This document shows, piece by piece, positions 12,342 through 28,832 of a DNA stretch of 36,469 nucleotides. A model generated the notes under the pieces. That model was given only the letters and a program-made list of their open reading frames with translations. It did not search any database and was not told the origin of the DNA. The number at the start of each line of letters is the position of its first letter. The stretch's first letter is position 1. Made by a program: the position numbers and the translations under genes. Source of the stretch: a virus; IMG/VR virus record IMGVR_UViG_3300048833_000782, positions 1 to 36,469 of that record; one strand, given 5' to 3'.

Positions 12342-12827
12342 TCACGCTCCCGAGGTGGTGCCCTTGGCGGGCGCGTTGGGCGAATCGATCGCGCGGACAA
12401 AACCGAAGGTGAACGCGTAGACGCCGCCTTGCGGGGTGGCGCGGGGCATGGAGGCAACGATCCAGTCGTTGTCGTTGTACTTGTGGCCCGTCTCGGTCAG
12501 CAGGCCGTCGGCGATGCGGAGGCGGACGATCTCGCTGCCGTCGTTGACCTCGGCCGTCGCGGCCTCGTAGAGGCGATCGAACGCCGGGTCGCCGTGGTAG
12601 ACGCCGACGGTGATCGAGAGGGCCGGCTTGCGACGCGTCGAGCGCCGGCCGCCGACGTGGGCGAAGCCGCGGAAATTCATCTCGGCGACGATCAGGCCCG
12701 GGTCGTCGGTGATGTCGCCGGCCGTGACGAGCTGCTGCCAATCGGGCGTGGTCCAGACGCCGCCGCCATCGTGGTCGATGTCGATGAAGGCGAGGTACTC
12801 GTCGCCAAGTTTGGTTTCGCCGGGCAT
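12342..12827 (-). CDS. Major tail tube protein (probable)
   Basis: A 161-residue beta-rich protein with GDEYLAFIDIDHDGGGVWTT at the start and RRKPALSITVGVYHGDPAFDRLYEAA in the middle, the pattern of lambda gpV-like tube proteins (beta sandwich with a helix between strands). It follows the tail terminator and precedes the chaperone genes and tape measure, the standard position for the tube gene. I chose ATG at 12827 over a TTG 19 codons upstream, because that upstream part is encoded by a palindromic repeat element rather than by ordinary coding sequence. Confidence 0.72.
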   Translation of the reverse strand: MPGETKLGDEYLAFIDIDHDGGGVWTTPDWQQLVTAGDITDDPGLIVAEMNFRGFAHVGGRRSTRRKPALSITVGVYHGDPAFDRLYEAATAEVNDGSEIVRLRIADGLLTETGHKYNDNDWIVASMPRATPQGGVYAFTFGFVRAIDSPNAPAKGTTSGA

Positions 12828-12842
12828 GCCGTGTCTCTTGCG

Positions 12843-12956
12843 GACGGTTGCGACCCGTCTCGCGTCGCTACGCTTGGCCGCCAACGCCTGCGGCGTCGGC
12901 CTTGGCCCGCGTAGCGGTCCGGGTCAGCCGCGAGGGTCGCCGCCGCCCGTCACAAC
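12843..12956 (-). repeat. Palindromic junction cassette, copy 1 (partial)
   Basis: Contains a heptaloop hairpin GACGG-TTGCGAC-CCGTC (12843-12859), a GC-rich hairpin with TACGC/GCGTA arms, and a late leader motif (12924-12956) that ends in TGA instead of ATG. The stop codon of the upstream gene lies inside the GTTGTGA of that leader. It fills the junction between the tail completion and tail tube genes. Confidence 0.8.
12924..12956 (-). promoter_or_regulatory. Late leader motif, copy ending in TGA
   Basis: 33 nt from GTTGTGAC to GGCTGA with GGCGACCCTCGC in the middle. The upstream gene uses its TTG-TGA as last codon and stop. It belongs to the cassette at 12843-12956. Confidence 0.7.
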
Positions 12957-13441
12957 GGAATCCGTTCGATGTTCTCCAGGACCTTGGCGTTGGCGTTCTT
13001 TTGGCCGTCGTCGAGCAGCGTGGGCCGCGGCTCGTAATCGGCGACGACGCTCTTGGGGGCGATCAGCTTCTGACGGCCGTCGGGGCGGGTGATCGTTTTG
13101 GCGGGCGTGTCGATTCGGACCTTGCCGCCCTTGAAGAGGGCGCCCGGGATGGTGGCGCCGGCGACCGGCTCGGCGACGGCCGAGGGGAACGTCGTGAAGC
13201 CGGCGAGCATCTCGCCGGCGTCAACGTCCACGTCGAAAGCCGAGTTTTTCTTGAGGGCCTTGGTGTGCGATTTGGGAACCGCGCCCGGGGCGGCCGAGGC
13301 CTTGCCGCTTCGCAGCGGCTGCCGGATGAAGACCTTCAGCGCGTAGCCGCCGGAGCTGAACAGCACCTTCCGCCGCTTCGCGAGCCAGCGCTTCCGCAGC
13401 GGGCCGGTGTCGATGACGAGGCGCGTTTTGAGGTCGATCAC
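12950..13441 (-). CDS. Tail completion / minor tail protein
   Basis: A 163-residue basic protein (VIDLKTRLVIDTGPLRKRW start) in the head-to-tail joining region, between the tail terminator candidate and the tail tube gene. No family was recognised. The start is GTG, overlapping the previous stop as GTGA, which indicates translational coupling. The C-terminus runs into the leader motif, so its final codons TTG-TGA are part of a repeat copy. Confidence 0.55.
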   Translation of the reverse strand: MIDLKTRLVIDTGPLRKRWLAKRRKVLFSSGGYALKVFIRQPLRSGKASAAPGAVPKSHTKALKKNSAFDVDVDAGEMLAGFTTFPSAVAEPVAGATIPGALFKGGKVRIDTPAKTITRPDGRQKLIAPKSVVADYEPRPTLLDDGQKNANAKVLENIERIPL

Positions 13442-14382: not shown

Positions 14383-14475
14383 GCTCTCGGGTTTAGATTC
14401 GTGGCCCCCCACGCCGCGGCCGCAGTTATCGCAGGCCCACGGCGTGAGGGGCGCTCTCGTACAGTTTGTTGTTCC

Positions 14476-14545
14476 GCCCGCCGGGCAAAGCCACGCCACG
14501 GCGTGGTAGCCCAAGCGGGCGTCAGGCAGGCGGGTCGCAACCGCC
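14476..14545 (-). repeat. Palindromic junction cassette, copy 2 (half)
   Basis: Long GC-rich hairpin with GCCCGC/GCGGGC outer arms and CCACGCC/GGCGTGG inner arms (14476-14520), plus heptaloop hairpin GGCGG-GTCGCAA-CCGCC (14529-14545). The heptaloop hairpin ends 2 nt from the capsid stop codon. Confidence 0.85.
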
Positions 14546-14547
14546 TA

Positions 14548-15495
14548 CTAGGTCAATGCCGCCTCGGTATTCAAAACCGCTTCGGTGATCAGGACCGGCA
14601 CGCCGGCGACCTCCTCGACGATCGGTGCGGGGGCGCCGGTCGGGCTGGTGGCCGTGCGGCTCTTGCGGAGCTGCTCTTGCGAGCGGCGGCTCATCACGAA
14701 GGCGTGGGGCGTGCGGCCCTCGGGGAAGCGGCTGAGCAGCTCGTACAGGTGGGCGTCGGTGAGCGTCTTATTGGCGCCGGTGCCGATGTTGCAGACGCGG
14801 CCGATGCTGTAGGCGCTGGCCACCTGCAGGCCGAGCCACGACTGGCCGTCGGTCACGTAGCCCGTGTAGTGCTTGCCGTCGCCGTCGGTGAGGCGCTGCT
14901 TGTTGGTCTCGCCGGGCTGCAGCGGGTTGGCGCTGTCGCCCTTGTAGACGCCGACGATGTCGTCCTCGCCAAGGCAGAGGGCGTAGACGCTCGACATGAT
15001 CGCGCCGTCGCCGGCGACGCCGCCGGCGTTGACGACCATCGTATCGGCCAGCGCGTTGATCGTGCCGGCGTCGCGGAAGCCGGCGAAGCCGCCAGCGGCG
15101 GCGCCAAGCTGACCGTTGATCAGTTGCTTCTCGAAGCCGAACAGCGCGGCCTTCAGGTGCCGCAGCGTCTCCCGCTCGAGGAAGTGCTCGCGGCCGCGGC
15201 GCCAGGCGTCGGCGACGGCGACGTCACAGCTCCACGCCCAGTCAAGGATCGCCAGGTCGCCGGTGACTTCCTGGTCGACGCCGTGGTCGTGCTCGCGACC
15301 GGCGTTCACGGCGCGGAAGCCGATCACCGGGGCCTGGATCTCTTTGGTGAACTTATGCACCGTCCCGTTGGACGATGGCACCATCGAGATCCGCGACACG
15401 AGCGGGGCGCGCTGAAGGACGTCGGAGACTTCGATATCCGCCAGGCCAAAGCCGTCGGCGATGAGGTCGGAGATTTGCAGCAGGTCGTCGGGCAT
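14548..15495 (-). CDS. Major capsid protein (HK97-fold, probable)
   Basis: A 315-residue protein following the protease-scaffold gene, the standard place for the major capsid protein. Features that fit are an N-terminal helical segment, a long alpha segment with RRGREHFLERETLRHLKAALFGFEKQL (about 100-126), an AFVMSRRSQEQLRK helix near 260-275 that resembles the P-domain helix of HK97-type coats, and a C-terminal strand GVPVLITEAVL. The start is ATG at 15495 with no clear Shine-Dalgarno site. Assignment is by pattern and order rather than a recognised close relative. Confidence 0.8.
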   Translation of the reverse strand: MPDDLLQISDLIADGFGLADIEVSDVLQRAPLVSRISMVPSSNGTVHKFTKEIQAPVIGFRAVNAGREHDHGVDQEVTGDLAILDWAWSCDVAVADAWRRGREHFLERETLRHLKAALFGFEKQLINGQLGAAAGGFAGFRDAGTINALADTMVVNAGGVAGDGAIMSSVYALCLGEDDIVGVYKGDSANPLQPGETNKQRLTDGDGKHYTGYVTDGQSWLGLQVASAYSIGRVCNIGTGANKTLTDAHLYELLSRFPEGRTPHAFVMSRRSQEQLRKSRTATSPTGAPAPIVEEVAGVPVLITEAVLNTEAALT

Positions 15496-15562: not shown

Positions 15563-16105
15563 CTAAGCGCCGACGATCTTCACGAAGCTCTTGCGCGGGG
15601 TGGTCGCGCCGCCGACGCCGCCGGCCGCGGCGAACTTGCCGGTGGCCTCGTCGCCGAGGCCGCCCCCCTCGGCGGCGGCCGCAGCCGCCCCCGAGAGTTG
15701 CTGGCGGAGCTGCTGGTTCTTTTGGGTCAGCACGGCGTGGCTGCGCTGCAGCGCCGCGCTGAACGTGAGGCCCGCGCTGAAGTAGCGAGCGCCGGCGCCG
15801 GGCCCTTCGGCCGGGTCGAACGTCGCCGTGAATTGGCTGAGCTGCTGAATCGCCTCTTGGCGATTGGGGTCGAGGGCGGGGTCCGCGGGCGGGGCCGCGG
15901 GTTGCTCCGCTACGGGCGCCGTGGGCGCGCCCGCTTCGGGCGGGGCGATCGCCGGCGGGGCGGGCTCCTCGATCGGTTCCGCTGCAAGAGCGGGGACCGG
16001 TGCGGGCGCCGGTGCGGGCGTGGCGGCCGGCGCGGGGCTCAGAGCGGCCGGGGCAGGGGTCGTGGCGACGGGGGCGGCCGCGGCCGCGGTGGCTGGTGTG
16101 CTCAT
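15563..16105 (-). CDS. Scaffold protein from internal in-frame start (predicted)
   Basis: Translation from ATG at 16105 (Met211 of the fusion) would give a 180-residue scaffold alone: MSTPATAAAAAP, an Ala/Pro linker and the helical C-terminus. The reason to propose it is that a 33-nt late leader motif ends exactly on this ATG, as at the starts of seven other late genes. Lambda makes Nu3 scaffold in the same way from inside gene C. It is a prediction; the motif could also be simple coding sequence that entered with a repeat. Confidence 0.55.
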   Translation of the reverse strand: MSTPATAAAAAPVATTPAPAALSPAPAATPAPAPAPVPALAAEPIEEPAPPAIAPPEAGAPTAPVAEQPAAPPADPALDPNRQEAIQQLSQFTATFDPAEGPGAGARYFSAGLTFSAALQRSHAVLTQKNQQLRQQLSGAAAAAAEGGGLGDEATGKFAAAGGVGGATTPRKSFVKIVGA

Positions 16106-16735: not shown

Positions 16736-16750
16736 GAAGGGTTTCTGGCG

Positions 16751-16932
16751 GGCGGTTGCGACCCGCCTCGCCGTGCCACGCTTGGCCGCCAACGCTTCGC
16801 GTCGGCTTCGGCCCGCGTGGCGGTGCGGATCACCCGCGAACGTCGCTGGCGCCTAGCACAACGCCCGCGGGGCAGGGCCACGCCACCGGCGTGGTAGCCC
16901 GAGCGGGCGCGGGAAGGCGGGTCGCAACCGCC
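16751..16932. repeat. Palindromic junction cassette, copy 3 (complete)
   Basis: Complete cassette bounded by inverted heptaloop hairpins: GGCGG-TTGCGAC-CCGCC (16751-16767) and its mirror GGCGG-GTCGCAA-CCGCC (16916-16932). Between them are a CCACGC/GCGTGG hairpin, a leader motif ending in TGA (16830-16862) and a long GC-rich hairpin (16863-16908). It lies between the divergent protease-scaffold and portal genes. Confidence 0.88.
16830..16862 (-). promoter_or_regulatory. Late leader motif in the centre of cassette copy 3
   Basis: 33 nt from GTTGTGC to TGA with GCGACGTTCGCGGG in the second half. Lies at the centre of the complete cassette and is not followed directly by a gene start. Confidence 0.6.
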
Positions 16933-16939
16933 GACCAGC

Positions 16940-16973
16940 GTTGTCACAAGGCTCGGCGAGCCTCGCCGGCATG
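16940..16973 (+). promoter_or_regulatory. Late leader motif, copy ending on ATG of the portal gene
   Basis: 34 nt from GTTGTCAC to ATG, the only copy on the plus strand. GGCTCG-G-CGAGCC and GGCGAG/CTCGCC are alternative stems against the start codon. Confidence 0.75.
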
Positions 16974-18590
16974 GACGCCCTGCAAACTTTCGTCGCCGAT
17001 ACCTCCGGCCAATTCGAAGCCGCCCCCGTCGCCGCCGGCTACCGCGCCGTCAACGACACCGGCAACCGCCGCCAGATCGTCGTGCGATCGCTCGCCGAGG
17101 ACCGCGTCCTCAAGGACCGCCAGCGGCGTCGCCTCATCGCCAGCGGCCGCGACCTGCAGCGCAATTTTCCGATCGCCGCGTGGGCCGTCCGCAAGCACCT
17201 CGACTACGTGTCGAATTTTCGGTTCCGGGCGACCACCAAGGACGAGGGGTTCAACCGCGAGTACGAGGCGTGGTGCGCTGAAGTCTCGCAGGCCCACAAC
17301 TTCGACCTGGCCAAGCGCCATTCGCGCGAGAGCGCGACGCGGCTGATGGAGGGCCACCGCTTCATCGACGGCGACGCGGGCTGGGCCAAGTTCGCCCTCG
17401 GCCAAGCGAAGGGCCGCTGCGAGCTGATTGAGGGCGATCGCATCTGCAACGAGGGAGCGCCGCTCGAACGTCGCAAGGCGAACGACAAGTCGGAGTGGAT
17501 CAACGGCGTCGAGGTCGATGTCCGCACCGGCGCCGCGCTCTCCTACGCGGTCGCCGACCGCACCGAGAGCGGCCTCAAGCCGGGCCGCGTCCTGTCGGCC
17601 CGCAACGTGATCATGGCGGGCTACTACGACCGCTACGACCAGGTCCGCGGCGTGCCGCCGTGGGCCTCGTCGATCGACACCTTCAAGGACGTGGACGAGG
17701 CCTTCGAGTTCACGCGCCTGAAGGTGAAGATGCACTCGCTCGCGGGGATCAAGTTCAAGCGGACCGCCGAGGGGCCGCTCGCCGAGTACGTCTCCGAGTC
17801 CTACCGCCAGAGCCCAGTCAAGGTCGATCTCGACGCCGATCCCGAGGAGGGCCGCTACGATGTCGACCTCTCCGGTGGCAGCGTCTTCGGCATCGACCTC
17901 GACCGCGGCGACGACGCCGAGTTCATGGAGTCGCAAACGCCGGCGACGCAGACCGTGGAGTTTCTCAAGCTGTGCGTGATGATCGCGCTGCGGTCGTGCG
18001 ACATCCCTTACAGCTTCTTCGACGAGAGCTTCACGAACTTCTACGGCCAGCGGGGCTGCTTCCTCAGCTACCTGCAGGGCGTGCGGATCCGCCAGCAGGG
18101 CCTCATCGAAGCGCTCAACTCTTGGATGCGGTGGCGGGCCGGCCTGGCGGTCGCCGACGGCTCGCTGCAGTTGCCCAGCGGCTGGGAGTACTCGGACCTC
18201 TCGCACTTGTGGCTACCGGTCGGGCAGCCGTGGTGGGACCCGTCGAAGGAGATCACGGCGACGGCCCTCGAAATCTCGCTGGGCCTCAACTCGCCGCAGA
18301 ACGCCTGCCACGAGCTCAACCGCGACTTCGAGCGCAACGTCGAGAGCACGATCGACGCGATCGCCTACGTGAATCGCAAGGCCGCCGAGAAGAACGTGGC
18401 GTTCGCGCTGAGCTTCGACGCGTCTAGCGCCACCAAGGGCGCGATGGCGGCAGACGCAACCGGCCAAGGGGCGACGGGTCAGGAGCCCGCAGAAACCGAA
18501 GTGGATCCGCGGGGTGAGCTGGGCAACGAGCCCGAGGACGCAGGCGACGCCGAGGATGCTTCCGGCGCCGAAGAGCCGATCGAAGAGTGA
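16971..18590 (+). CDS. Portal protein, lambda family
   Basis: A 539-residue phage portal protein that forms the dodecameric DNA gate of the head. It matches the lambda-type portal pattern: RRLIASGRDLQRNFPIAAW followed by VRKHLDYV near 50-80, then a GVPPWASSIDTFKDVDEAFEF segment near 225-245 and a CDIPYSFFDESFTNFY region. Length is normal. Unlike all other virion genes it is on the plus strand. I choose ATG at 16971, abutted by a late leader motif; an in-frame TTG at 16941 would add ten residues encoded by that motif. Its stop (TGA, 18588-18590) abuts the stop of the opposing gene with no gap. Confidence 0.92.
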   Translation: MDALQTFVADTSGQFEAAPVAAGYRAVNDTGNRRQIVVRSLAEDRVLKDRQRRRLIASGRDLQRNFPIAAWAVRKHLDYVSNFRFRATTKDEGFNREYEAWCAEVSQAHNFDLAKRHSRESATRLMEGHRFIDGDAGWAKFALGQAKGRCELIEGDRICNEGAPLERRKANDKSEWINGVEVDVRTGAALSYAVADRTESGLKPGRVLSARNVIMAGYYDRYDQVRGVPPWASSIDTFKDVDEAFEFTRLKVKMHSLAGIKFKRTAEGPLAEYVSESYRQSPVKVDLDADPEEGRYDVDLSGGSVFGIDLDRGDDAEFMESQTPATQTVEFLKLCVMIALRSCDIPYSFFDESFTNFYGQRGCFLSYLQGVRIRQQGLIEALNSWMRWRAGLAVADGSLQLPSGWEYSDLSHLWLPVGQPWWDPSKEITATALEISLGLNSPQNACHELNRDFERNVESTIDAIAYVNRKAAEKNVAFALSFDASSATKGAMAADATGQGATGQEPAETEVDPRGELGNEPEDAGDAEDASGAEEPIEE

Positions 18591-19079
18591 TCAGCGTTTC
18601 GGTGGCGGCGGAGGGAAGGGCCCGCTCGGCCGCGGCGGCCGCACAGGCGCGTCTCCTTTGATACGTTGCCGGTTCAATCGCAGGCGATAAAACACCCACC
18701 ATCGCGACGCCTCTTCGCGGAGGTTCTGCCACCAGCTCGGCGTCACGTCGCGGAGCTGCGCCAGGTGCGGCGCGTAGTTCTCGGGATCCGGGTACAGATC
18801 GACGTACTGAAGTTGACCGAAGCCGTCGTGATAGGGATGCAGGCCGAAGCGATCGGGAACGACCGTCAGTCGTACGGTGACATCCCAAATTTCTTGATCG
18901 TCGGGTAACGGGTCCGCAAGAGAACAGCTCGGCGAGATCGACGCCTCCACGCTCGACCACAAGAGCCGCCCAGGGCCGAAGCGGCCAACCGGCCGTGCGT
19001 TGAGTTTGCCGACGAACCGGCGGCTCATCGCCATCAACTCGGCTCGTGTTACGTGACCCGCGTAGAGGCGTTGCTTCAT
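18591..19079 (-). CDS. Hypothetical protein between portal and connector genes
   Basis: A 162-residue protein, not recognised. It has a basic N-terminus, a beta-rich centre (IWDVTVRLTVVPDRFGLHPY), aromatic residues around SWWQNLREEASRWWVFYRLRL and a proline-rich C-terminus ending PPPPPKR. The location between gpW-like and portal genes suggests a head-associated role, but nothing in the sequence proves it. ATG at 19079 is preceded by a shortened leader motif (GTGATACGTTCGCC then GGCATG). It converges with the portal gene; the stops are back to back. Confidence 0.55.
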   Translation of the reverse strand: MKQRLYAGHVTRAELMAMSRRFVGKLNARPVGRFGPGRLLWSSVEASISPSCSLADPLPDDQEIWDVTVRLTVVPDRFGLHPYHDGFGQLQYVDLYPDPENYAPHLAQLRDVTPSWWQNLREEASRWWVFYRLRLNRQRIKGDAPVRPPRPSGPFPPPPPKR

Positions 19080-19180
19080 GCCGGCGAACGTATCACGCCC
19101 GCGGCGATCGCCGATGCAATCTGGAGCACGGTTGCGCGTCCCCTAGCCTCTAGCCTCCAGCATCTGTCCTCTCGCGGGCG

Positions 19181-19393
19181 TCAGCCGAGCCTCATTCGAT
19201 TGAACATCGGCCGCCGCCGCGGCGTCGCGGTCGCTGCGCGTTGCAGCTCCTCGAGGTAAGCGATCCGCTGACGCAGATCGTCGGCGCTGGCGTGCGTCGT
19301 CGTGGTGCCGTCGGTCGAGATCACGAGCACGCCCGAGGCGAGCTGCTCGCGCAAACCCTGGATCTCGGCGGAGTAGTCAACGGGAGCGGGCAT
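19181..19393 (-). CDS. gpW-like head-tail joining protein
   Basis: A 70-residue protein with the gpW pattern: an N-terminal helix (AEIQGLREQLASG), a beta hairpin (VLVISTDGTTTTHAS), a second helix (ADDLRQRIAYLEELQRA) and a basic C-terminus. gpW-family proteins bind the portal ring and allow tail attachment. The size agrees with lambda gpW. ATG at 19393 is fixed by the late leader motif; longer upstream reading is repeat-derived. It is separated from the terminase unit by a strong terminator-like hairpin and from the portal by one gene. Confidence 0.8.
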   Translation of the reverse strand: MPAPVDYSAEIQGLREQLASGVLVISTDGTTTTHASADDLRQRIAYLEELQRAATATPRRRPMFNRMRLG

Positions 19394-19423
19394 GCCCGGA
19401 CGTTCACCGCCGGCCGGCACAAC
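19391..19423 (-). promoter_or_regulatory. Late leader motif, copy ending on ATG of the gpW-like gene
   Basis: 33 nt from GTTGTGCC to ATG, with CCGG-containing arms around GGCGGTGAACGT. It is directly preceded on the mRNA by the GC-rich hairpin of cassette copy 4. Confidence 0.75.
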
Positions 19424-19493
19424 GCCCGCGGGGCAAAGCCACGCCCCGCCGTGGCAGCCCGAGCGGGCGCCGGCGAGCGGGGTCGCAACCCGC
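19391..19493 (-). repeat. Palindromic junction cassette, copy 4 (half)
   Basis: From the mRNA 5' side: heptaloop hairpin GCGGG-GTCGCAA-CCCGC (19477-19493), long GC-rich hairpin (19424-19468), then the leader motif and ATG (19391-19423). This is the clearest example of the order hairpin, hairpin, leader, gene. Confidence 0.85.
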
Positions 19494-19499
19494 CGCCAG

Positions 19500-19535
19500 A
19501 AAACGACGGGGGCCGCTGGTTTCCCAACGGCCCCC
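19500..19535 (-). terminator. Rho-independent terminator downstream of the 20014 gene
   Basis: On the minus strand a 12-bp stem, GGGGGCCGTTGG with CCAGCGGCCCCC (one U-G pair), closes a GAAA tetraloop (19508-19535) and is followed by GTCGTTTT. It would end transcription of the terminase unit before the gpW-like gene, so the genes to its left need another promoter or read-through. Confidence 0.75.
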
Positions 19536-19582
19536 TCGGTCACGCATCGAAAAAGTGTGCGTTCCGTGTCACGCCGGGAAGT

Positions 19583-20014
19583 CTACTCGACCGCCGGCTT
19601 GTCGCGGTACTCCCACTCGCGGGCGCCCTCGTCGTCGGACGCGACGAGCTGCCGCTCCTGGCGGATGAACTTGCCCGCCTCGCGGTCATAGATCGCCTCG
19701 GTCTCGGCCCAGGGGATGATCACCGTGCCGACCGGGGGATGATCTTCCTTGGCCGGTTTCGGCCGGGTGTCGGCGACAGGGTTGGCTGCTAGCGTCAGGG
19801 CCGCCGGCTTGATGTCCTTGGCGGTCGAATCGACGGTGGGGGCCGCTGGAGGCCCTACGGGGCCCGTAGACGCGTCGGCGGCCGGTTTGGTGTCCTTGGT
19901 CGCCTCGGCGCCCGAGGACGCGTCAGACGGCAATTGTGGGGCTCCGGCGGCCCCGGCGAGGCCGCCGAGGTCGTCGATGCCGGCCGGGTCGGGCGAGTTG
20001 GTCTGCTTGGCCAC
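19583..20014 (-). CDS. Hypothetical protein downstream of the terminase
   Basis: A 143-residue protein with a disordered Ala/Asp/Pro-rich N-terminal half (1-80) and a compact basic C-terminal half containing VIIPWAETEAIYDREAGKFIRQERQLV and ending YRDKPAVE. No family was recognised. A head accessory role is possible from the location between large terminase and gpW-like connector. The start is GTG at 20014, just inside the end of palindromic cassette copy 5; the Shine-Dalgarno site is weak. A terminator-like hairpin follows about 48 bp after the stop. Confidence 0.55.
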   Translation of the reverse strand: MAKQTNSPDPAGIDDLGGLAGAAGAPQLPSDASSGAEATKDTKPAADASTGPVGPPAAPTVDSTAKDIKPAALTLAANPVADTRPKPAKEDHPPVGTVIIPWAETEAIYDREAGKFIRQERQLVASDDEGAREWEYRDKPAVE

Positions 20015-20025
20015 AGTTTCTCACG

Positions 20026-20210
20026 GGCGGTTGCGACCCGCCTCGCGGCGCCACGCTCGGCCGCCAACGCGATCGCGTCGGCTCCGGCCCGCGTGGCGAC
20101 GGGGGGTCACCCGCGAACGTCGCCGGCGGGCGGCACAACGCCCGCGGGGCAAGGCCACGCGCTCAGCGTGGTAGCCCGAGCGGGCGCCGGGCGGCCGGGT
20201 CGCAACCGGC
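20026..20210. repeat. Palindromic junction cassette, copy 5 (complete)
   Basis: Complete cassette: heptaloop hairpins GGCGG-TTGCGAC-CCGCC (20026-20042) and GCCGG-GTCGCAA-CCGGC (20194-20210) at the ends, GCCACGC/GCGTGGC stem (20050-20097), leader motif ending in TGA (20107-20139) and long GC-rich hairpin (20140-20185). It begins 6 nt after the terminase stop codon and reaches to within 12 nt of the next start. Confidence 0.88.
20107..20139 (-). promoter_or_regulatory. Late leader motif in the centre of cassette copy 5
   Basis: 33 nt from GTTGTGCC to TGA, with CCCGC and GCGGG arms around CGGCGACGTTC. Not directly followed by a gene start. Confidence 0.65.
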
Positions 20211-20216
20211 CCCCAG

Positions 20217-22643
20217 CTAACCGAGCTTCCTACTCTTCCGCGGCTTGCGAGCCGTCGGCGCCGCCGCGACCTGCCCCCGCGGCGTCTCGCCCGGCGTCGT
20301 GGCGCCGGCGATCATCGCCACCACGGGCAGGTTGTAGAGCACGTCGAGGAGGTGGTTATCGACGCCCGGCTTATCGGCAAAGGTCCAGACGCTGCGGTCC
20401 TGCATCTCGCTGCGCTGGAGGTCGGCTGAGACCGCCTGGCAGTGGTCGCCGATCATCTGCAGCGCGGCCACGTCGGCCACCTTGGGCATCGCGAACGATC
20501 CCAGCGCGCCGACCGGCAACCGCAGCGAGTCGAACAGCCGCTTGAGGTGGTAGTTGCGATTGACGAGCGCATAGGGCACGCCCGTCTTGTCGCGGCGGTG
20601 GACCCACTCGAGGCCCTTCCGCTCGCCCTTCTCTTTGCCCCACTCGCCGATCGGTTTGTTGCCCGGGCCGATGCCCTTACCGATGAAGCCGACCAGCCGC
20701 GCAAAGTCGGGGCTGTGCAGCATCCAGCGCTTCATGGCCCCGCTGCGGTTGCCGTTGGCGATGTCGATGGCGATCAGGTCGATCGAGCGGAAGCCCGCGC
20801 CATTCGGTAGCGGGTAGCGCTGCGCGAACAGCCGCCGCGTGAGGTCGGTGAGGCCCTGGGCGATCGCCGCGTCGGTGTCGAGCTCCATGCCCGGCCAGTT
20901 GTGCTCGGGCCGCGCCTCGGCGTAGTAGCTCTGCAGCGAGTAGCGGAGATTCGAGAGCGTCCAATAACGCTGCTGCTGGTTGGGCCAACCGCCGAAGTCC
21001 ACGAGGTGGCCGCTCAAGAAATCCCAGAACGCGCCCACGCCCCAGTAGAGGCACGAGTCCTGCTGGTCGATGTACGCGACGAGGTGCGTCGTCGCCGGGT
21101 CGATGATCCCGGGCCCGAGGCCGTGCTGCTTGTTGGCGATCGCCGTCGCCGACGGGATGATGATCTCCGACTCGCGTTGCTTCGGCTCGTTCTGGCATTC
21201 GGTGGCGAACGCCTCCTCGCCCAAGTCGATCAGCAGGTTGTAGGCGTGCTGGATCGCCGAGACCTCGCCGTCCTCGGCCTTGTAGCAATGCTCCCACGCG
21301 ACCTTGCAGCCGGCGTCCATCGCCGTTCGTTTGGCGAGGTAGAACTCGGTGGCCCGGACGTGGGCCTTCGCCTGCGCGTCGGCGTCGTCGGCGCCGAACG
21401 CGCGGCGGATCGTCGCGTAGTCGTCCATCCACAGCGTGTCGTGCGCGTCGGCCCACTGGAGGACCATCGGCACGCGTTGCTTCTGCCAGGCGGCGAAGCG
21501 GCCGTTCTTGGGGTCGGTGATCTGATCGATCAGCGAGCCGCGGGCCGCGTTGGTGCCGTTGATGACGCCGGCCATCGAGTGGTGATGGCCGCCGAGCAGG
21601 AGCCAGTCTTGGTAGATCCAGTCGATATGGTTCTCGACCTGGGCGGCGCTCTTCGCTTGCTTGGTGGTCTCGATGTCGTCGCCGAGGAAGAAGTCGGGGC
21701 GGACCGTGTCGCCGTCGGGCAGCAGGTAGTTCGAGCCGCGGGCCGATCCCTTCGCCACCGCGTCGACGATCACCCAGCCGCCGGCGGTTCGATGCTCGTC
21801 GGGCGCCCCTTTCACTCCCGAGGGGCAGTTGGGGATCACGATCCGGTCGGTCGACCACTCGGCGCCGGTCGATACGCCTTGGTACGTCTGGCTCTTCGCC
21901 CGTTGGTGCTTGCCGCCGAAGGCGCGGATCGCGTGCACCAGCTCGGGGAAGTCCTCGGCGATGCGCTCGTTGCTTTCGAGCGTCGTCTTCACGGCCGACA
22001 ACAGCGAGCGGCTGAACTTGAGCTTGTTGCCGAACAGGACGATGTAGCGGCGATGGCCGTAGACGATCGCCCACACCATGAGGCGGACGCCGAGCGTCGT
22101 CTTCGCGAAGCCGCGGAAGATGGCCTGGGCGAAGAGGCCGCCGTGCAACAGGCAACGCGCGATGAACGCGATCACCAAGAAGTGCAGCGGAGAGAGCGGC
22201 TTGTCGTGCGGGCCGGCGAAGTACTCGCTGATGAAGCCGCAGGCGTCGAGCCGGCAACGCTCGCGCCGCTCCGGGTTTGCGCACTTGGGGATCTCGCCGA
22301 GCTCGGCCGAGGCCGCGTAGTTCTGCCGCGATCGCTCGGCGGCCCGGGCGCGATGCTCGGCCGCCCGCTCCTCGGGCGTGAGGTCGAAGCGTGGCGAGCG
22401 GCGGCGTGGTTTCTGGTCGCCCGTTGCGACCGGGCTTCCCGGCGACCCGCTCGGCGGGCCACTCGCTTCGCTCGCGGCTTTCGCCCGCGGGCGATTTCCT
22501 TTCACGTCCGGGGCGGTTTCATTCACCGGAGGGGCGGATTTTTCACGAGCCGCCGACCGCTTCTTAGCGCGCGCAGCTTCCGCCTTGGTTTGCTTCTCAG
22601 CCTTCCGCTCTCGCCGCTTCTCGTCTGCCCGTCGCTTCGCCAT
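20217..22643 (-). CDS. terL: Terminase large subunit
   Basis: An 808-residue DNA packaging motor and nuclease. The ATPase domain shows an altered Walker A, RGFAKTT (177-183), and a Walker B with DDIE (322-325) in DFFLGDDIETT. The nuclease half has acidic residues in VAYIDQQDS and IDLIAIDIANGN. The N-terminal about 110 residues are highly charged and low in complexity; residues about 50-77 are encoded by a copy of the palindromic repeat, so this part may be dispensable. It is long for the family because of that extension. ATG at 22643 is abutted by a leader motif. No small terminase was recognised nearby. Confidence 0.93.
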   Translation of the reverse strand: MAKRRADEKRRERKAEKQTKAEAARAKKRSAAREKSAPPVNETAPDVKGNRPRAKAASEASGPPSGSPGSPVATGDQKPRRRSPRFDLTPEERAAEHRARAAERSRQNYAASAELGEIPKCANPERRERCRLDACGFISEYFAGPHDKPLSPLHFLVIAFIARCLLHGGLFAQAIFRGFAKTTLGVRLMVWAIVYGHRRYIVLFGNKLKFSRSLLSAVKTTLESNERIAEDFPELVHAIRAFGGKHQRAKSQTYQGVSTGAEWSTDRIVIPNCPSGVKGAPDEHRTAGGWVIVDAVAKGSARGSNYLLPDGDTVRPDFFLGDDIETTKQAKSAAQVENHIDWIYQDWLLLGGHHHSMAGVINGTNAARGSLIDQITDPKNGRFAAWQKQRVPMVLQWADAHDTLWMDDYATIRRAFGADDADAQAKAHVRATEFYLAKRTAMDAGCKVAWEHCYKAEDGEVSAIQHAYNLLIDLGEEAFATECQNEPKQRESEIIIPSATAIANKQHGLGPGIIDPATTHLVAYIDQQDSCLYWGVGAFWDFLSGHLVDFGGWPNQQQRYWTLSNLRYSLQSYYAEARPEHNWPGMELDTDAAIAQGLTDLTRRLFAQRYPLPNGAGFRSIDLIAIDIANGNRSGAMKRWMLHSPDFARLVGFIGKGIGPGNKPIGEWGKEKGERKGLEWVHRRDKTGVPYALVNRNYHLKRLFDSLRLPVGALGSFAMPKVADVAALQMIGDHCQAVSADLQRSEMQDRSVWTFADKPGVDNHLLDVLYNLPVVAMIAGATTPGETPRGQVAAAPTARKPRKSRKLG
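22413..22494. repeat. Palindromic element copy inside the terminase coding sequence
   Basis: Heptaloop hairpin GCCCG-TTGCGAC-CGGGC (22419-22435) plus a second stem CCCGC-TCG-GCGGG and TCGCCCGCGGG at the right end. It aligns over about 80 bp with the intergenic copy at 22674-22754. It is read in frame as terminase residues about 50-77. Confidence 0.8.
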
Positions 22644-22674
22644 GCCGGCGAGCGTCGCCGCCGGCCGTCCTAAC
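22641..22674 (-). promoter_or_regulatory. Late leader motif, copy ending on ATG of the terminase gene
   Basis: 34 nt ending on ATG; the 5' end reads GTTAGGAC rather than GTTGTG. GCCGGCG and CGCCGGC make a 7-bp stem directly against the start codon. Confidence 0.7.
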
Positions 22675-22812
22675 TGGTCGCCGCTTGCGACGCGGCTTCC
22701 CTGCCCCGCTCGGCGTGCCAGTCGCTACGCTCCCGGCCTTCGCCCGCGGGGCAAAGCCACGCGATCAGCGTGGTAGCCCGAGCGGGCGTCAGCGAGCCGC
22801 GTCGCAAGCGGC
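22674..22812. repeat. Palindromic junction cassette, copy 6
   Basis: End hairpins GCCGC-TTGCGAC-GCGGC (22680-22696) and GCCGC-GTCGCAA-GCGGC (22796-22812) are mirror images; between them is the long GC-rich hairpin (22742-22787). The right hairpin ends 2 nt from the stop codon of the fibre gene. Confidence 0.87.
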
Positions 22813-22814
22813 CG

Positions 22815-25160
22815 CTAGGAACTCGCGCCGACGTTGACGTCCACTAGTGCCAGTGCTGGCCCGCCGCCGCCGGCGTAGATCACGTTGATCTGCAGCACGT
22901 AGCGGCCGACGGCCGCCTCCGCCGCGGCGGCGAGCGCGAAGCGGGCCTCCGCGCCGTTGCGCTTGAAGTCGCCGACAACAACAAGATCCTCGTCGCCGGC
23001 GTCGTCGGGCTTGCTGACGACGGTGATCGACACGACCTGGTAGATCGAGCCGCCGCCGGCGAGGTCCTTGGCGAACGACGCGGCGAACAGCGGGCCACTC
23101 TCGCCGGCCGAGATCGGCAGCGGGGTCTCGGAGTAGAGCTTGTCGCCGCGGCGGATGAGCTTGGCCGTGCGCGAGTCAGGGACATGCGCGCCCTCGACGT
23201 CGGTCGGCAGCAGGTACGGAGCGACCGCAGTGGCGAGCGCCTCCACGTCGACCACGTTGGCGAGCGCCTCGCCGAGCTCGGTCTGGCCTTCGCCCAGAGC
23301 GAGCAGCGTGAGGTACTGCGCGGCGACGCCGGCCGTGCCGTCCGTGATCGCCGCGTGCGCCTGCGCGACGCGAGTCTGCAGCGTCTGCTGGGTGGCGTCG
23401 GCGTTCATTTGTTCGACAACCGCCGCCGCGATCCCTTGCGCCGCCGGGTCCGACTCGATCAGCGACTCGGCGATCGTCTGGTAGATGTTGTGCAAGAGCG
23501 CCTGCCCGTCCTCGTCGTCGATCAGCCGCGCCTCGGTGGCGTCAGCCGTTTGCGTCGGCAACGACAGCCGCGTCACCGCTTCCTTGGTGGCGGGGATCGT
23601 GTCAGCCGCCGCGTTCTCCAGCGCCCGATACTGAGCCGCGCCGAACGCCGCGCCGCCGGCCGCGGCCGTGTGCAAATAGGTTGAGCCGGTCTGCTCGAGG
23701 TAAGCCGGCCCCCAATCGGTCACGCTGCCGTAGAGGTCGCGCATCGCCCAGTGCATATCCACGAGTTGCACGCGGTCGGGCTCGCCGAACTCTTCGACGG
23801 CGCGGGCGATCTCGTCGCGCTGGAACTCGGTCGCCGGCGTCCGATCCACGCCCACGCCGATGTAGGGCGTCGGCGTGTAGCAGAGCACGCCGAAGCGCTC
23901 TTTGGTGTGACGCTGGCCGATCGTCACCCAGCGGTCGAGCATCTGCAAGTAGAGCGCCGTCCGCGGCGTGAACTCGACTTCATTGACGCCCAGGTGAATG
24001 CGGAGCGTGTCCATCGGGTAGCCGCTGGCCGCGATCGCCTCGAACCAGGCGTCAATCTGGTCGTCCTTGATGGCGTTGGCGGGGTTCTCGCCGCCCGCCT
24101 CGGTCGCGAAGTCGGCGACGGCCGTCCCGCCGACGCCGATGATCGGGCAATAGACCATCCCCTGCGTCCGGTCCTTCGCGACCCAGCCGTAACCGAGTTG
24201 CAGCCACGCCTTGTCGGTCATCGCGACCTGTAGCTGCGCGACGCAGTCGATCGCCCCGCCCGTGCCGGCCATCGTGGAGACCGTGTAGTGATTCGATGTG
24301 TAGCCAGAGACGCTGGTCGGGTTGAACGCGGCCGAGGCGGCGGCGCCGACGCTCACGTCTCGGCGCGTCGTCTGCCGCATGCTCGTTACGTTGTGAGAGC
24401 CGCCGATGTACGAGAGCCAGGTGTCGATCGCCCCGATGTCGTAGGGGAGGTTGTTCGGGTTGAGGTAGAGGCCCGCGCTGCCGGTGGCGCCGCTGCCGAA
24501 GCCGCCGGGCGTGAACGTCAAAAAGTTGGCGAGGCTGCCGACCCAGCTCGACGCGGCGACGAACGGTAGGCGGTTGACGATCGAGGTCGTCGGGAAGGTG
24601 GCTTCCTTCGCCACGTCAACCCGGATTCCGGTTTGAGCCGCCGCGCCTTTTTGCGAGAACGGGTTCTGGCCGTCCATCAGCACGACCTCGCCGCGCATCC
24701 GCATACGGGGGCCGCTGTAGTCGATGTCCCAATCGGTGACACAACGCCAGGTGGCCGACGACGACGTGATCGAGTCGCCGATGCCGCCGACGTTGGAGCG
24801 GCCGTCGAGCATCCGCTTGGCCGTGTTCCAGTCGCTGCTGACGGTGACGCGCGACAGGCGGAAGGCGGCCACCACGGTTCCGACCAGGCTCACGTCGGTC
24901 GCGCCCGCGGTAATGCGGACGGTGTAGTCGACGCCGGGCACGAACGAGGCGTCGCTGGTGAGGATGCGGACGCGATGAACGCCCGCGCCCCCTTCGTCGA
25001 TAAACAGCGCGACGCCGGCGGTGAGGGCCGTCGTGCTGCCGCCGCGGAAGAGCGACACGGCGAGCGGGCCCGTCGGCGTCGCTGGCAGGCCGGTCGCGCC
25101 GTTGAACGTGTTGATCGGGAGGTCGATCGTCTCGCCGATCGCGTAGGTGGTGCTTTGCAT
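22815..25160 (-). CDS. Tail fibre / baseplate protein with SGNH hydrolase domain
   Basis: A 781-residue protein. Residues 1-105 form a beta sandwich (VDYTVRITAGATDVSLVGTV) like N-terminal attachment domains of tail proteins. An SGNH/GDSL hydrolase follows: GDS at 128-130 in GGIGDSITSS, then IHLGVNEVEF in the place of the GxND block, and YLHTAAAG near the expected Asp/His block. The second half is Ala-rich, helical and ends in a beta domain. It would be a deacetylase or esterase acting on surface polysaccharide during adsorption. ATG at 25160, 2 bp after the preceding stop. The GxND block is GVNE here, which differs from the usual form. Confidence 0.75.
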   Translation of the reverse strand: MQSTTYAIGETIDLPINTFNGATGLPATPTGPLAVSLFRGGSTTALTAGVALFIDEGGAGVHRVRILTSDASFVPGVDYTVRITAGATDVSLVGTVVAAFRLSRVTVSSDWNTAKRMLDGRSNVGGIGDSITSSSATWRCVTDWDIDYSGPRMRMRGEVVLMDGQNPFSQKGAAAQTGIRVDVAKEATFPTTSIVNRLPFVAASSWVGSLANFLTFTPGGFGSGATGSAGLYLNPNNLPYDIGAIDTWLSYIGGSHNVTSMRQTTRRDVSVGAAASAAFNPTSVSGYTSNHYTVSTMAGTGGAIDCVAQLQVAMTDKAWLQLGYGWVAKDRTQGMVYCPIIGVGGTAVADFATEAGGENPANAIKDDQIDAWFEAIAASGYPMDTLRIHLGVNEVEFTPRTALYLQMLDRWVTIGQRHTKERFGVLCYTPTPYIGVGVDRTPATEFQRDEIARAVEEFGEPDRVQLVDMHWAMRDLYGSVTDWGPAYLEQTGSTYLHTAAAGGAAFGAAQYRALENAAADTIPATKEAVTRLSLPTQTADATEARLIDDEDGQALLHNIYQTIAESLIESDPAAQGIAAAVVEQMNADATQQTLQTRVAQAHAAITDGTAGVAAQYLTLLALGEGQTELGEALANVVDVEALATAVAPYLLPTDVEGAHVPDSRTAKLIRRGDKLYSETPLPISAGESGPLFAASFAKDLAGGGSIYQVVSITVVSKPDDAGDEDLVVVGDFKRNGAEARFALAAAAEAAVGRYVLQINVIYAGGGGPALALVDVNVGASS

Positions 25161-26610: not shown

Positions 26611-26624
26611 ACGCTTGCGCTTCC

Positions 26625-26696
26625 GCCCGCGGGGCAAGGCCACGCGGAGCGTGGTTGCCCGAGCGGGCGTCGGGCGGCCGCCATCGCAAGGCGGCC
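26625..26696 (-). repeat. Palindromic junction cassette, copy 7 (half)
   Basis: Long GC-rich hairpin (26625-26668) and a heptaloop hairpin with a longer stem, GGCCGCC-ATCGCAA-GGCGGCC (26676-26696). The hairpin begins 9 nt after the stop codon of the protease gene. Confidence 0.83.
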
Positions 26697-26705
26697 CCCA
26701 GCAAC

Positions 26706-28832
26706 TCAATCCTGCGAGAGGTACCACATCACGCCGATCACGCCGGCGACGCCGCCGAGCGCGAGCAGCAACGTGGCGGGTGACGTCGGCGCCGATGGCG
26801 CCCCGTAACGCGGCTGCTGCGGGACCTGGCCCCAGCCGGGCTGCTGAGGGGGGCAGCCGTTGGGGCCGCAGTAGTCCTGCCGCTGGCCCCCCTGCTGGCC
26901 CCAGCCTTGCTGCGGCTGCTGAGGCGGTTGGCCCCAGCTCTGCTGCTGTTGCGGGCCGATCTGGTACGGCGATTGGTCGGGGAAGATCGGCTCGTCACGC
27001 TGCTCGTACTGGCGGCCCTGCGACTGCTGCTGCCGCGGTGGCGACGGTTGCGAGTACTGCGGGGCCGAGTCCTGGTACCACTCCGGGCAGCCGCCGGGAG
27101 GGCATTGCGTCGGATCGTTCGGGTCCCACTGCACGAGCTCGAGGGTCGGCGCTTCGCTATCGACCGAGGCCATGCTGCGCCGCGTCCGCTGCCCGCGGCT
27201 CACCACGTCGCACAAGAACTCATGCACGACCGCCGGCGACGGGAAGAGCATCTTCTCGTAGTAGCGGCCGCCGCGCGATTGATAACCCTGGCCCTCGCCG
27301 TTAGTGACGACCGAGCAGACCGCGACGCGGCCGAGCGAGTCGAGCGTAAGAATGCCGCCGCCCGAGTCGCCGTGCATGGCCTGGCCGTCGGTGCGGTCCT
27401 TGCCCCGGTACGCCTGGCCCTCGTACATCATCGCGTAGTTGCGGAGCGTCGTCGCGCCGGAGCCGTAGCCCATCGCTTCGAGGTACTCGCCGGGCTGCGG
27501 GGCGCGGTCGGTCCAGTGCAAGGGCGGCACGTCGCTGCGCGGCGTGCTCATTACCAGGAACGCCAGGTCGGCGCCGGTGCGATCGCTGACGATCGCCGAG
27601 AAGCGTTGCTGCTGGCCGTCGATCCAGCGGCCGCCGACCTGGCTGGCCGAGCGGATCTCGCTAACGACGTGCTTGGCGGTCAGCACGCCGCCCAGGTTGG
27701 GCCCGAGCTGCATGTACACGCCCGAGCCGACGGAGCCGTCGGTGGTTTGCAGGCGCAGCGCGCAGGCGTGCCATGGCGCGGGCGGCGTCCACTTCCACTC
27801 GACGTCTTCGAGACCGAGGTACTGGACCTGCGGCGCCGACGCCATGATCGCGTTGACCGCGGCCGTCGCTTCGACCTTGGCGGTCTGGCTGAACGGCTGC
27901 AGCAGCTTGTAGCTGCCGTCACGGTCTTCGAGCTCGCGGAAGGGATCGCGCTGCACGGGTACCAGCGGCCGCAGGGCCGCCGGCGTCGCCGCGGAACGCC
28001 AGCCGTCGGCCGGCAGGTGGTGATCGGCGGCCGAGCTCGTCGAGGCGAGGCAAGCCACGATGAGAACCGCTACCACCTTCAAGCCGTGCTTCTTCGTTGG
28101 GAGTTGCTGCCCACCGTCTGGATCGTCGTCGTCGTATTCTTCGACGGAGTAGAACCTTCGACGATCGAGCAGCTCCCAGACTTGCAAGGCGATGCTGACA
28201 GCGACGAGCACGCAAAAGGCCACTCGCACGTAATCGCCGGAGTTCCACGAGATGTCCGCAGCTTTGCAGCATTCCAGTTCGACGGGCGAAGCTTCCGTCT
28301 GACCGGTCGCTCTAGTCTGCGGATCGTACTCGGATGCCGGCGGAACGTACGGTTGAATGTAGGGGCACTGCGCCACGGCCGACGAGCTCGTCGCCAGGCC
28401 GATCGCGAGCAGCAGCGCGACGCCGCCGCTGGCGTATTTGCAGACGCGCTCGGTGGGGCGGCCGCTGGTGAGTTTGGAAACGGCGTAGCCGAGCATCGTC
28501 GCGAACACGCCGCCCAGACCGAACACCCAGCCCGGCGCGGCCGCCGGCGGTGGCGTTGGCGACGCCGGCGAGTACTCCTCGGGAGGCGGGCAGCATTGCC
28601 GCTGCGCGTTCTCTAGCCGCGTGAGGCGCGACTCGTGACGCTGGAGCCAGGTCCAGGCCTGCTCGATCGCCGAGCGGCAATCGCAGCCCTCGCAATCGCG
28701 GAGGACCGCGGCGGGCGCGTCGGCCGGCTCCTTCGCCAGTGAAGCAGCCGCCAGCGACTGGACCGGCTCGGCAGGGAGCTCGTCGGGCAGCGAGAGGGGG
28801 AGCGTCAACAACAGAGCGAGCAAGGCCAACAT
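26706..28832 (-). CDS. Multi-pass membrane protein with trypsin-like serine protease domain
   Basis: A 708-residue protein. A signal-like N-terminus (MLALLALLLTLPLSL) is followed by hydrophobic segments at about 101-121, 134-152, 201-220 and 251-269. Then comes a chymotrypsin-fold protease with His388 (LTAKHVV), Asp422 (GADLAFLV) and Ser490 (MHGDSGGG). A Pro/Gln/Gly-rich region (about 570-670) leads to a final membrane helix near 686-703. Segments ending SSAVAQ and SSAAD look like signal cleavage sites, so it may be processed. It lies upstream of two tiny membrane genes, where lysis genes are expected, and no endolysin was found. ATG at 28832 has GGAGG 7 nt upstream. Confidence 0.82.
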   Translation of the reverse strand: MLALLALLLTLPLSLPDELPAEPVQSLAAASLAKEPADAPAAVLRDCEGCDCRSAIEQAWTWLQRHESRLTRLENAQRQCCPPPEEYSPASPTPPPAAAPGWVFGLGGVFATMLGYAVSKLTSGRPTERVCKYASGGVALLLAIGLATSSSAVAQCPYIQPYVPPASEYDPQTRATGQTEASPVELECCKAADISWNSGDYVRVAFCVLVAVSIALQVWELLDRRRFYSVEEYDDDDPDGGQQLPTKKHGLKVVAVLIVACLASTSSAADHHLPADGWRSAATPAALRPLVPVQRDPFRELEDRDGSYKLLQPFSQTAKVEATAAVNAIMASAPQVQYLGLEDVEWKWTPPAPWHACALRLQTTDGSVGSGVYMQLGPNLGGVLTAKHVVSEIRSASQVGGRWIDGQQQRFSAIVSDRTGADLAFLVMSTPRSDVPPLHWTDRAPQPGEYLEAMGYGSGATTLRNYAMMYEGQAYRGKDRTDGQAMHGDSGGGILTLDSLGRVAVCSVVTNGEGQGYQSRGGRYYEKMLFPSPAVVHEFLCDVVSRGQRTRRSMASVDSEAPTLELVQWDPNDPTQCPPGGCPEWYQDSAPQYSQPSPPRQQQSQGRQYEQRDEPIFPDQSPYQIGPQQQQSWGQPPQQPQQGWGQQGGQRQDYCGPNGCPPQQPGWGQVPQQPRYGAPSAPTSPATLLLALGGVAGVIGVMWYLSQD

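Follow-up and report, generated by a model that had tools for sequence, protein, structure and literature searches.

A candidate mobile palindrome of REP/REPIN type in the gene junctions of phages

Repetitive extragenic palindromic (REP) sequences, and the REPINs (REP doublets forming hairpins) that they build, are chromosomal, are mostly inherited vertically and have rarely been seen to move. Here we describe a palindromic unit of ~80 nt that recurs in the gene junctions of the phage in IMG/VR virus record IMGVR_UViG_3300048833_000782 (36,469 bp; this entire stretch is referred to below as the window), and we compare it with the closest described systems. REPINs are inverted REP doublets (PMC3116915), and GTAG repeats are known in planctomycetes (PMC3733652). 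TnpA-REP enzymes cut REPs as folded single strands, reading both the tetranucleotide and the hairpin, and in the Marinomonas Mb REPtron (TnpA-REP group 3) the REP combines a tetranucleotide, a 2-nt gap, a 5-bp perfect stem and mutation-intolerant loop positions (PMC8266576). Class 3 TnpA-Y1 repeats with a CnGA foot are known in Planctomycetes and Acidobacteria; REPs inserted inside tnpA genes have also been described (PMC6006769).

The window unit has features in common with each of these systems. Like REPINs and bacterial interspersed mosaic elements (BIMEs), it is a short extragenic palindrome, often found as an inverted doublet, with a conserved outer tetranucleotide and compensatory changes that keep its structure. 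Unlike them, it carries a CTNG rather than a GTAG tag, has a second long hairpin, is dense in phages but sparse in the chromosomes examined, and is linked to no REP-associated tyrosine transposase (RAYT). All four features of the Mb REP recur in the unit, but the Mb REP has GTAG, a 4-nt TTTA loop and no long second hairpin, whereas the unit has CTNG and the 7-nt loop TTGCGAC. Class 3 TnpA-Y1 repeats are likewise atypical structured repeats with a C-starting foot tetranucleotide and are known from planctomycetes, but their published foot is CnGA as opposed to CTNG (PMC6006769). Overall, we consider it about 70% probable that a small mobile element of REP/REPIN type, itself non-autonomous, forms the building block of the repeat cassettes in the window.

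Architecture and fold of the unit

The original prediction from the window described two ~185-bp cassettes of five parts, at 16751-16932 and 20026-20210, as a modular element with mirror-image ends. All five parts are present in both cassettes, and the ends are indeed mirror images, since cassette 2, when reverse-complemented, matches both itself and cassette 1 at 71% over ~187 bp (direct cassette-cassette identity is 86%). Each cassette, however, is an inverted pair of a ~80-nt unit, with a copy of a leader motif in between; the basic element is this unit, with its inverted dimer, rather than the cassette. The unit consists of (TTT)CTGG, 2 nt, a 5-bp hairpin with the loop TTGCGAC, ~10 nt and a long imperfect hairpin. 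Alignment of all copies places them in one family, with an outer long-hairpin stem of CCACGC/GCGTGG (L type), GCCCGC/GCGGGC (R type) or other paired variants; the CCACGC and GCCCGC hairpins, earlier regarded as two types, are homologous and represent one unit in opposite orientations. Units occur singly or as inverted dimers.

A covariance model (R1), built from the same window copies that it then recovered, identified exactly 11 units in the window at 62.7-87 bits, with the next-best match at 14.6 bits. Ten of the 11 lie entirely in non-coding DNA, which makes up ~10% of the window by our own gene calls, and one lies inside the terminase gene. Among the 110 perfect hairpins of the window with stems of at least 5 bp and 7-nt loops, 10 have the loop TTGCGAC/GTCGCAA, while none of the other loops (100 distinct) occurs more than twice. 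Rfam at the gathering threshold gave 0 matches in the window.

Conservation of the fold was assessed on a set of 19 copies, drawn from the window, two other phages and two chromosomes, following an earlier version of the analysis with 12 copies. In a structure-free MAFFT alignment, 97.4% of the cells formed by 14 pairs and 19 copies were paired (standard pairs), and 9 of the 14 pairs had changed on both sides. None of 500 shuffles scored as high as observed on cells paired or on covariation, and versions with slid pairs all fell below the observed covariation score, although these slid controls somewhat favor the chosen fold because the pairs were picked by eye from the copies. Stem changes were almost all compensatory double substitutions, with a single one-sided change in 265 cells, and loop and tag remained constant while stems varied. 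The near-absence of one-sided changes would, in this small sample, fit selection on a DNA hairpin, in which G-T is a poor intermediate. In 17 of 19 copies, a CT..G tag is separated from the following stem by 2 nt; the foot of every copy is CTGG, CTAG, CTTG or CTCA, and the loop is TTGCGAC in 17 of 19, the remaining two being off by one base. Upstream of the loop, only the stem, the CTNG tag and the T's in front of it are conserved, with nothing above background beyond TTT, which gives the element a sharp left end; on the right, sequences diverge past the outer stem.

In cassette 1, the left unit (L type, 16745-16821, + strand) has its CTGG foot at 16745-16748, a heptaloop hairpin at 16751-16767 and the long hairpin CCACGC...GCGTGG. 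It is followed by a leader-motif copy (16826-16860, -) and by the right unit (R type, 16861-16938, -), with foot CTGG at 16935-16938 (CCAG on the + strand), a heptaloop hairpin and the long hairpin GCCCGC...GCGGGC. The same order is seen in cassette 2, with an L-type unit (20020-20097, +, foot CTCA), a leader-motif copy (20103-20137, -) and an R-type unit (20138-20216, -, foot CTGG), the last of which immediately follows the terminase stop codon. Copies at 12843, 14476, 19391, 22674 and 26625, predicted to be partial, are real, but 22674-22818 is a complete inverted pair with overlapping long hairpins, located before the terminase gene (left unit 22674-22755, +, foot CTGG; right unit 22740-22818, -, foot CTAG). 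The others are single units: an L-type unit at 12837-12915 (+, foot CTTG), then a leader motif at 12924-12957; an R-type unit at 14474-14551 (-, foot CTAG) by the major head protein gene; an R-type unit at 19422-19499 (-), placed between an intrinsic-terminator-like hairpin (19535-19508), which it directly follows, and the leader of a head-tail adaptor (gpW-like) gene; and an R-type unit at 26623-26702 (-) with the loop TTGCGAT, a few nt past the stop codon of gene 26706-28832. The unit at 22413-22494 (+), inside and antisense to the terminase large subunit (TerL) open reading frame, was absent from the original list.

Distribution among phages and chromosomes

Tag-plus-loop patterns retrieved two further IMG/VR phages. 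A third such pattern gave no further units, and exact scans with the R-type core gave no matches in viral or genome collections because stems vary. Phage B, comprising contigs L261 and L266 (overlapping at 100% over 2,096 bp), carries four units, at L261:1614, 3746 and 9159 and at L266:7788-7861 (L266:413-483 is the same unit as L261:1614). Its terminase and tape measure protein are 32% and 36% identical, over aligned parts, to those of the window phage, and its portal belongs to the same PHROG. Phage C (L237) carries one overlapping inverted dimer. Its terminase (phrog_9), portal (phrog_12), ClpP-like protease and head protein (phrog_10) belong to other families than those of the window (phrog_38, phrog_21, phrog_212), yet its dimer matches the window dimer at 22674-22822 at 79% over 152 bp, and the TerL-internal unit has its nearest counterpart in an L237 copy (84%), ahead of every window copy (best 79%). 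These L237 matches, between phages with different head families, speak most strongly for movement of the unit independent of phage descent. The window holds three inverted pairs and L237 one, and the dimer is thus common to unrelated phages. No units were found in 37 portal-related virus contigs, and annotated phages and plasmids showed no DNA match.

The window carries genes for an integrase domain, terminase, portal, major head protein and tape measure. Searching viral contigs with its terminase revealed no close relatives; distant homologs (~30-35%) occur in Lacipirellulaceae genomes, for which reason a planctomycete host is likely, though not proven. The L237 portal had no match in Lacipirellulaceae. 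One full unit was found beside ordinary chromosomal genes in each of two Lacipirellulaceae genomes, G014 and G013. A truncated copy directly precedes the full unit of G014, and a second heptaloop hairpin with a CTGG tag lies 3 kb from that of G013. Of 397 Pirellulales genomes only 2 had a match, as did 2 of 398 Planctomycetia genomes, with the best 12 candidates per genome scored; across the whole-genome model searches the best 12-150 candidates were scored, so that sparse or diverged chromosomal copies may be missed. Unit density is ~0.3/kb in the window phage and ~0.2/kb in phage B, as opposed to no unit in a 400-kb sample spread over G013 and, in the 400 kb surrounding the G014 match, that single locus. 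This contrast is based on two chromosomes, and density in phages B and C is biased upward because they were found by searching for the unit, a bias from which the window is free.

Short BLAST-like matches in other planctomycete genomes (L115, L118-L122, L095-L104) were without hairpins and were treated as chance. A tandem array of truncated units, together with another palindrome repeat, GGGAGGGCGAGGCTCCTGCCGAGCC, was observed in a Lacipirellulaceae chromosome (L116/L230, G014:C1 ~737000).

Junction occupancy, stop codons and possible insertion targets

Unit occupancy differs between the window phage and phage B. The terminase-portal junction holds two unit positions in the window and none in phage B, and the portal-protease junction holds cassette 1 in the window and no unit in phage B. 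A tail gene (12342-12827; homolog L261:3288-3743, 30%) has a unit upstream in the window and downstream in phage B, where a unit also follows the head decoration gene. Both phages have a unit between gene X and the terminase gene, a dimer in the window; the phage B copy is closest to the window unit at 19422 (74%, versus 70% to the unit at the same junction). Because the two phages are only ~30% identical, these differences point to turnover over long times rather than to an insertion caught in the act.

Five copies have a CTAG tag, whose TAG serves in every case as the stop codon of the gene upstream: window 14548-14551 (major head protein gene) and 22815-22818 (gene 22815-25160), L261:3740-3743, L237:3589-3592 and L266:7864-7867. 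The simplest reading is that the unit was inserted near the 3' end of a gene and that a change from CTGG to CTAG then restored the stop. Upstream of unit 19422, the T-tract of the preceding terminator-like hairpin runs into the tag, and the G014 copy, as read from its sequence, likewise follows a GC hairpin with T's; these two cases suggest that insertion targets may be T-rich.

Rickettsia palindromic elements (RPE) are palindromic units that lie within protein-coding genes, in tolerant regions, and leave the gene unbroken. The strand opposite the TerL-internal unit encodes residues ~50-78 of the terminase N-terminal tail. None of the relatives can be aligned over the first ~106 residues, and in phage B the first aligned residue is reached 23 residues earlier, about one unit length, which places the insertion in a tolerant tail. 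The unit thus resembles RPE and the REPs inside tnpA genes (PMC6006769) in its insertion into a tolerant part of a gene, but differs in that just one of 11 window copies is so placed.

In the window, the portal gene (16971-18590, +) is inverted relative to the terminase, head protein and tape measure genes, and cassette 1 adjoins its 5' end. In related virus contigs the portal runs in the same direction as terminase and head protein wherever both can be seen; the exception is L223, which has its terminase on the other strand.

Competing explanations and other repeats

For a mobile element of REP/REPIN type, the folded single strand would be recognized through its loop and CTNG tag by an HUH transposase (Y1, TnpA-REP/IS200-like) acting in trans and supplied by the host or by another element. 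Single or dimeric units would be moved into T-rich sites, insertions would survive mainly in gene junctions, and the tag change from CTGG to CTAG would supply a stop codon to the upstream gene. In cassettes 1 and 2, an R and an L unit may have come to flank a leader motif, after which the composite was duplicated. Directly observed are a discrete, sharp-ended unit, its conserved fold, its presence in unrelated phages, its presence or absence at junctions and one copy in a gene. The predicted spread of a modular element through gene junctions is thereby supported, as the unit is found in the unrelated L237, at mostly different junctions in the distantly related L261/L266, in two chromosomes and, once, within coding sequence. 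Mobility was held to be unlikely if all relatives carried the same cassettes at the same junctions; the relatives compared, all distant, do not.

Several observations weigh against a REP-type mobile element. The tag is CTNG and not the GTAG/GTGG foot of the REP superfamily, and no genome with a high unit copy number, as is seen for classical REPs, was found among those scanned. No transposase gene was flanked by the unit, with 28 Lacipirellulaceae Y1 loci free of it (the true host is not among them). No empty and filled site was found between near-identical phages, those compared being only ~30% identical, and occupancy of the gene X-terminase junction in both phages could reflect inheritance. 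Furthermore, whereas most copies fold better than shuffles, L237:3589-3670 does not (z -0.94), and two window copies do so weakly. Y1 proteins (PF01797) are present in 10 of 11 other genomes tested, and this domain was absent from the window. The proposed search for a REP-associated transposase found none in the window, and the Lacipirellulaceae Y1 genes examined (L163-L192) adjoin different, short hairpins with (G)TAG feet, such as CCCAGGGC-aac-GCCCTGGG and also CCAGGGGC/GCCCCTGG, in what are apparently classical RAYT-REP pairs. Because tag and RAYT flank both differ in the genomes at hand, we do not file the unit in the GTAG REP superfamily. With its short palindrome, conserved structure and fixed distance from a tetranucleotide it is REP-like in working, but it is not a proven REP. 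A more specific version, a REPIN-like element adapted to phages, with its own CTNG/TTGCGAC code, mainly in late-gene junctions, moving between unrelated phages under a putative transposase, with the tag becoming the upstream stop codon, is tentative and on balance doubtful.

Chance palindromes are excluded on present data: hairpins are common in DNA of 68% GC, but a loop count of 10 versus at most 2 for any other 7-nt loop, a lead of 48 bits for the weakest unit over the next match, covariation and independent copies elsewhere speak otherwise. A stronger contender, which we nonetheless consider somewhat improbable, is that the units are a chromosomal REP family of an unsampled planctomycete host that landed in prophages, with nothing phage-specific about them; it differs from the mobile element favored here only in the reservoir, and both can hold. 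The units in two Lacipirellulaceae chromosomes beside ordinary genes and the distant terminase homologs in that family are in its favor, as are the three other virus contigs, whose IMG sample numbers lie close together and which may therefore have a host population in common. The density contrast between phages and the 400-kb chromosomal samples and the rarity of matching Pirellulales and Planctomycetia genomes count against it.

Units might instead be vertically inherited functional structures (mRNA 3'-end stabilizers, terminators or processing signals) that insulate late genes, as the original prediction offered as an alternative. Most R-type copies in the three phages, and the G013 copy, do lie 0-8 nt past a stop codon with the heptaloop end toward it, and the gene X-terminase junction is occupied in both the window phage and phage B. 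Such a role is nevertheless unlikely, given that nearly all units lack a T-tract after the hairpin and that a terminator scan listed the TerL-internal copy but no junction unit. The GC hairpin plus T-tract of an intrinsic terminator is not seen in the junction units; the terminator-like hairpin at 19422 precedes the unit and is not part of it. In addition, one copy lies in a gene, others are in 5' leaders, L units stand between leader and start codon, none occurs in 37 phages whose head genes are related, and the homologous tail gene has its unit on opposite sides in the window and L261. Fixed sites for module exchange or genome maturation, suggested by cassette 1 at the breakpoint of the inverted portal gene, are very improbable: copy number and position vary from phage to phage, the stems are free to vary, and the unit is also found in chromosomes and in a phage whose terminase belongs to an unrelated family.

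If the unit is mobile, a dense REP-like family common to unrelated phages would make gain and loss traceable on phage timescales and would reveal a route for horizontal spread of REP-like repeats. The tag serving as stop codon would offer a testable case of a mobile element accommodated at gene ends.

The leader motif, GTTGTNMC...GGCGACGNTCGCCGGC-ATG, lies directly before ~9 start codons on both strands (4822, 8911, 10887, 16105, 16971, 19393, 25846 and others), with a small hairpin before the ATG. It had been taken for the central part of the element. We rejected this because the motif stands alone at ~9 gene starts of the window and was not found at gene starts or unit-bearing junctions of phages B and L237; it is a gene-start motif in its own right, enclosed by two units in both large cassettes. 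It is possibly a phage-specific promoter or translation signal, and the copy at 16105 may mark where a scaffold protein starts within the protease reading frame. Short tandem heptamer arrays (CTAGCCT / TAGCCCC) are also present in junctions upstream of start codons in the window phage (26594-26609, 10924-10953, 12279-12295) and in phage B (L261:1722, 5546, 9233).

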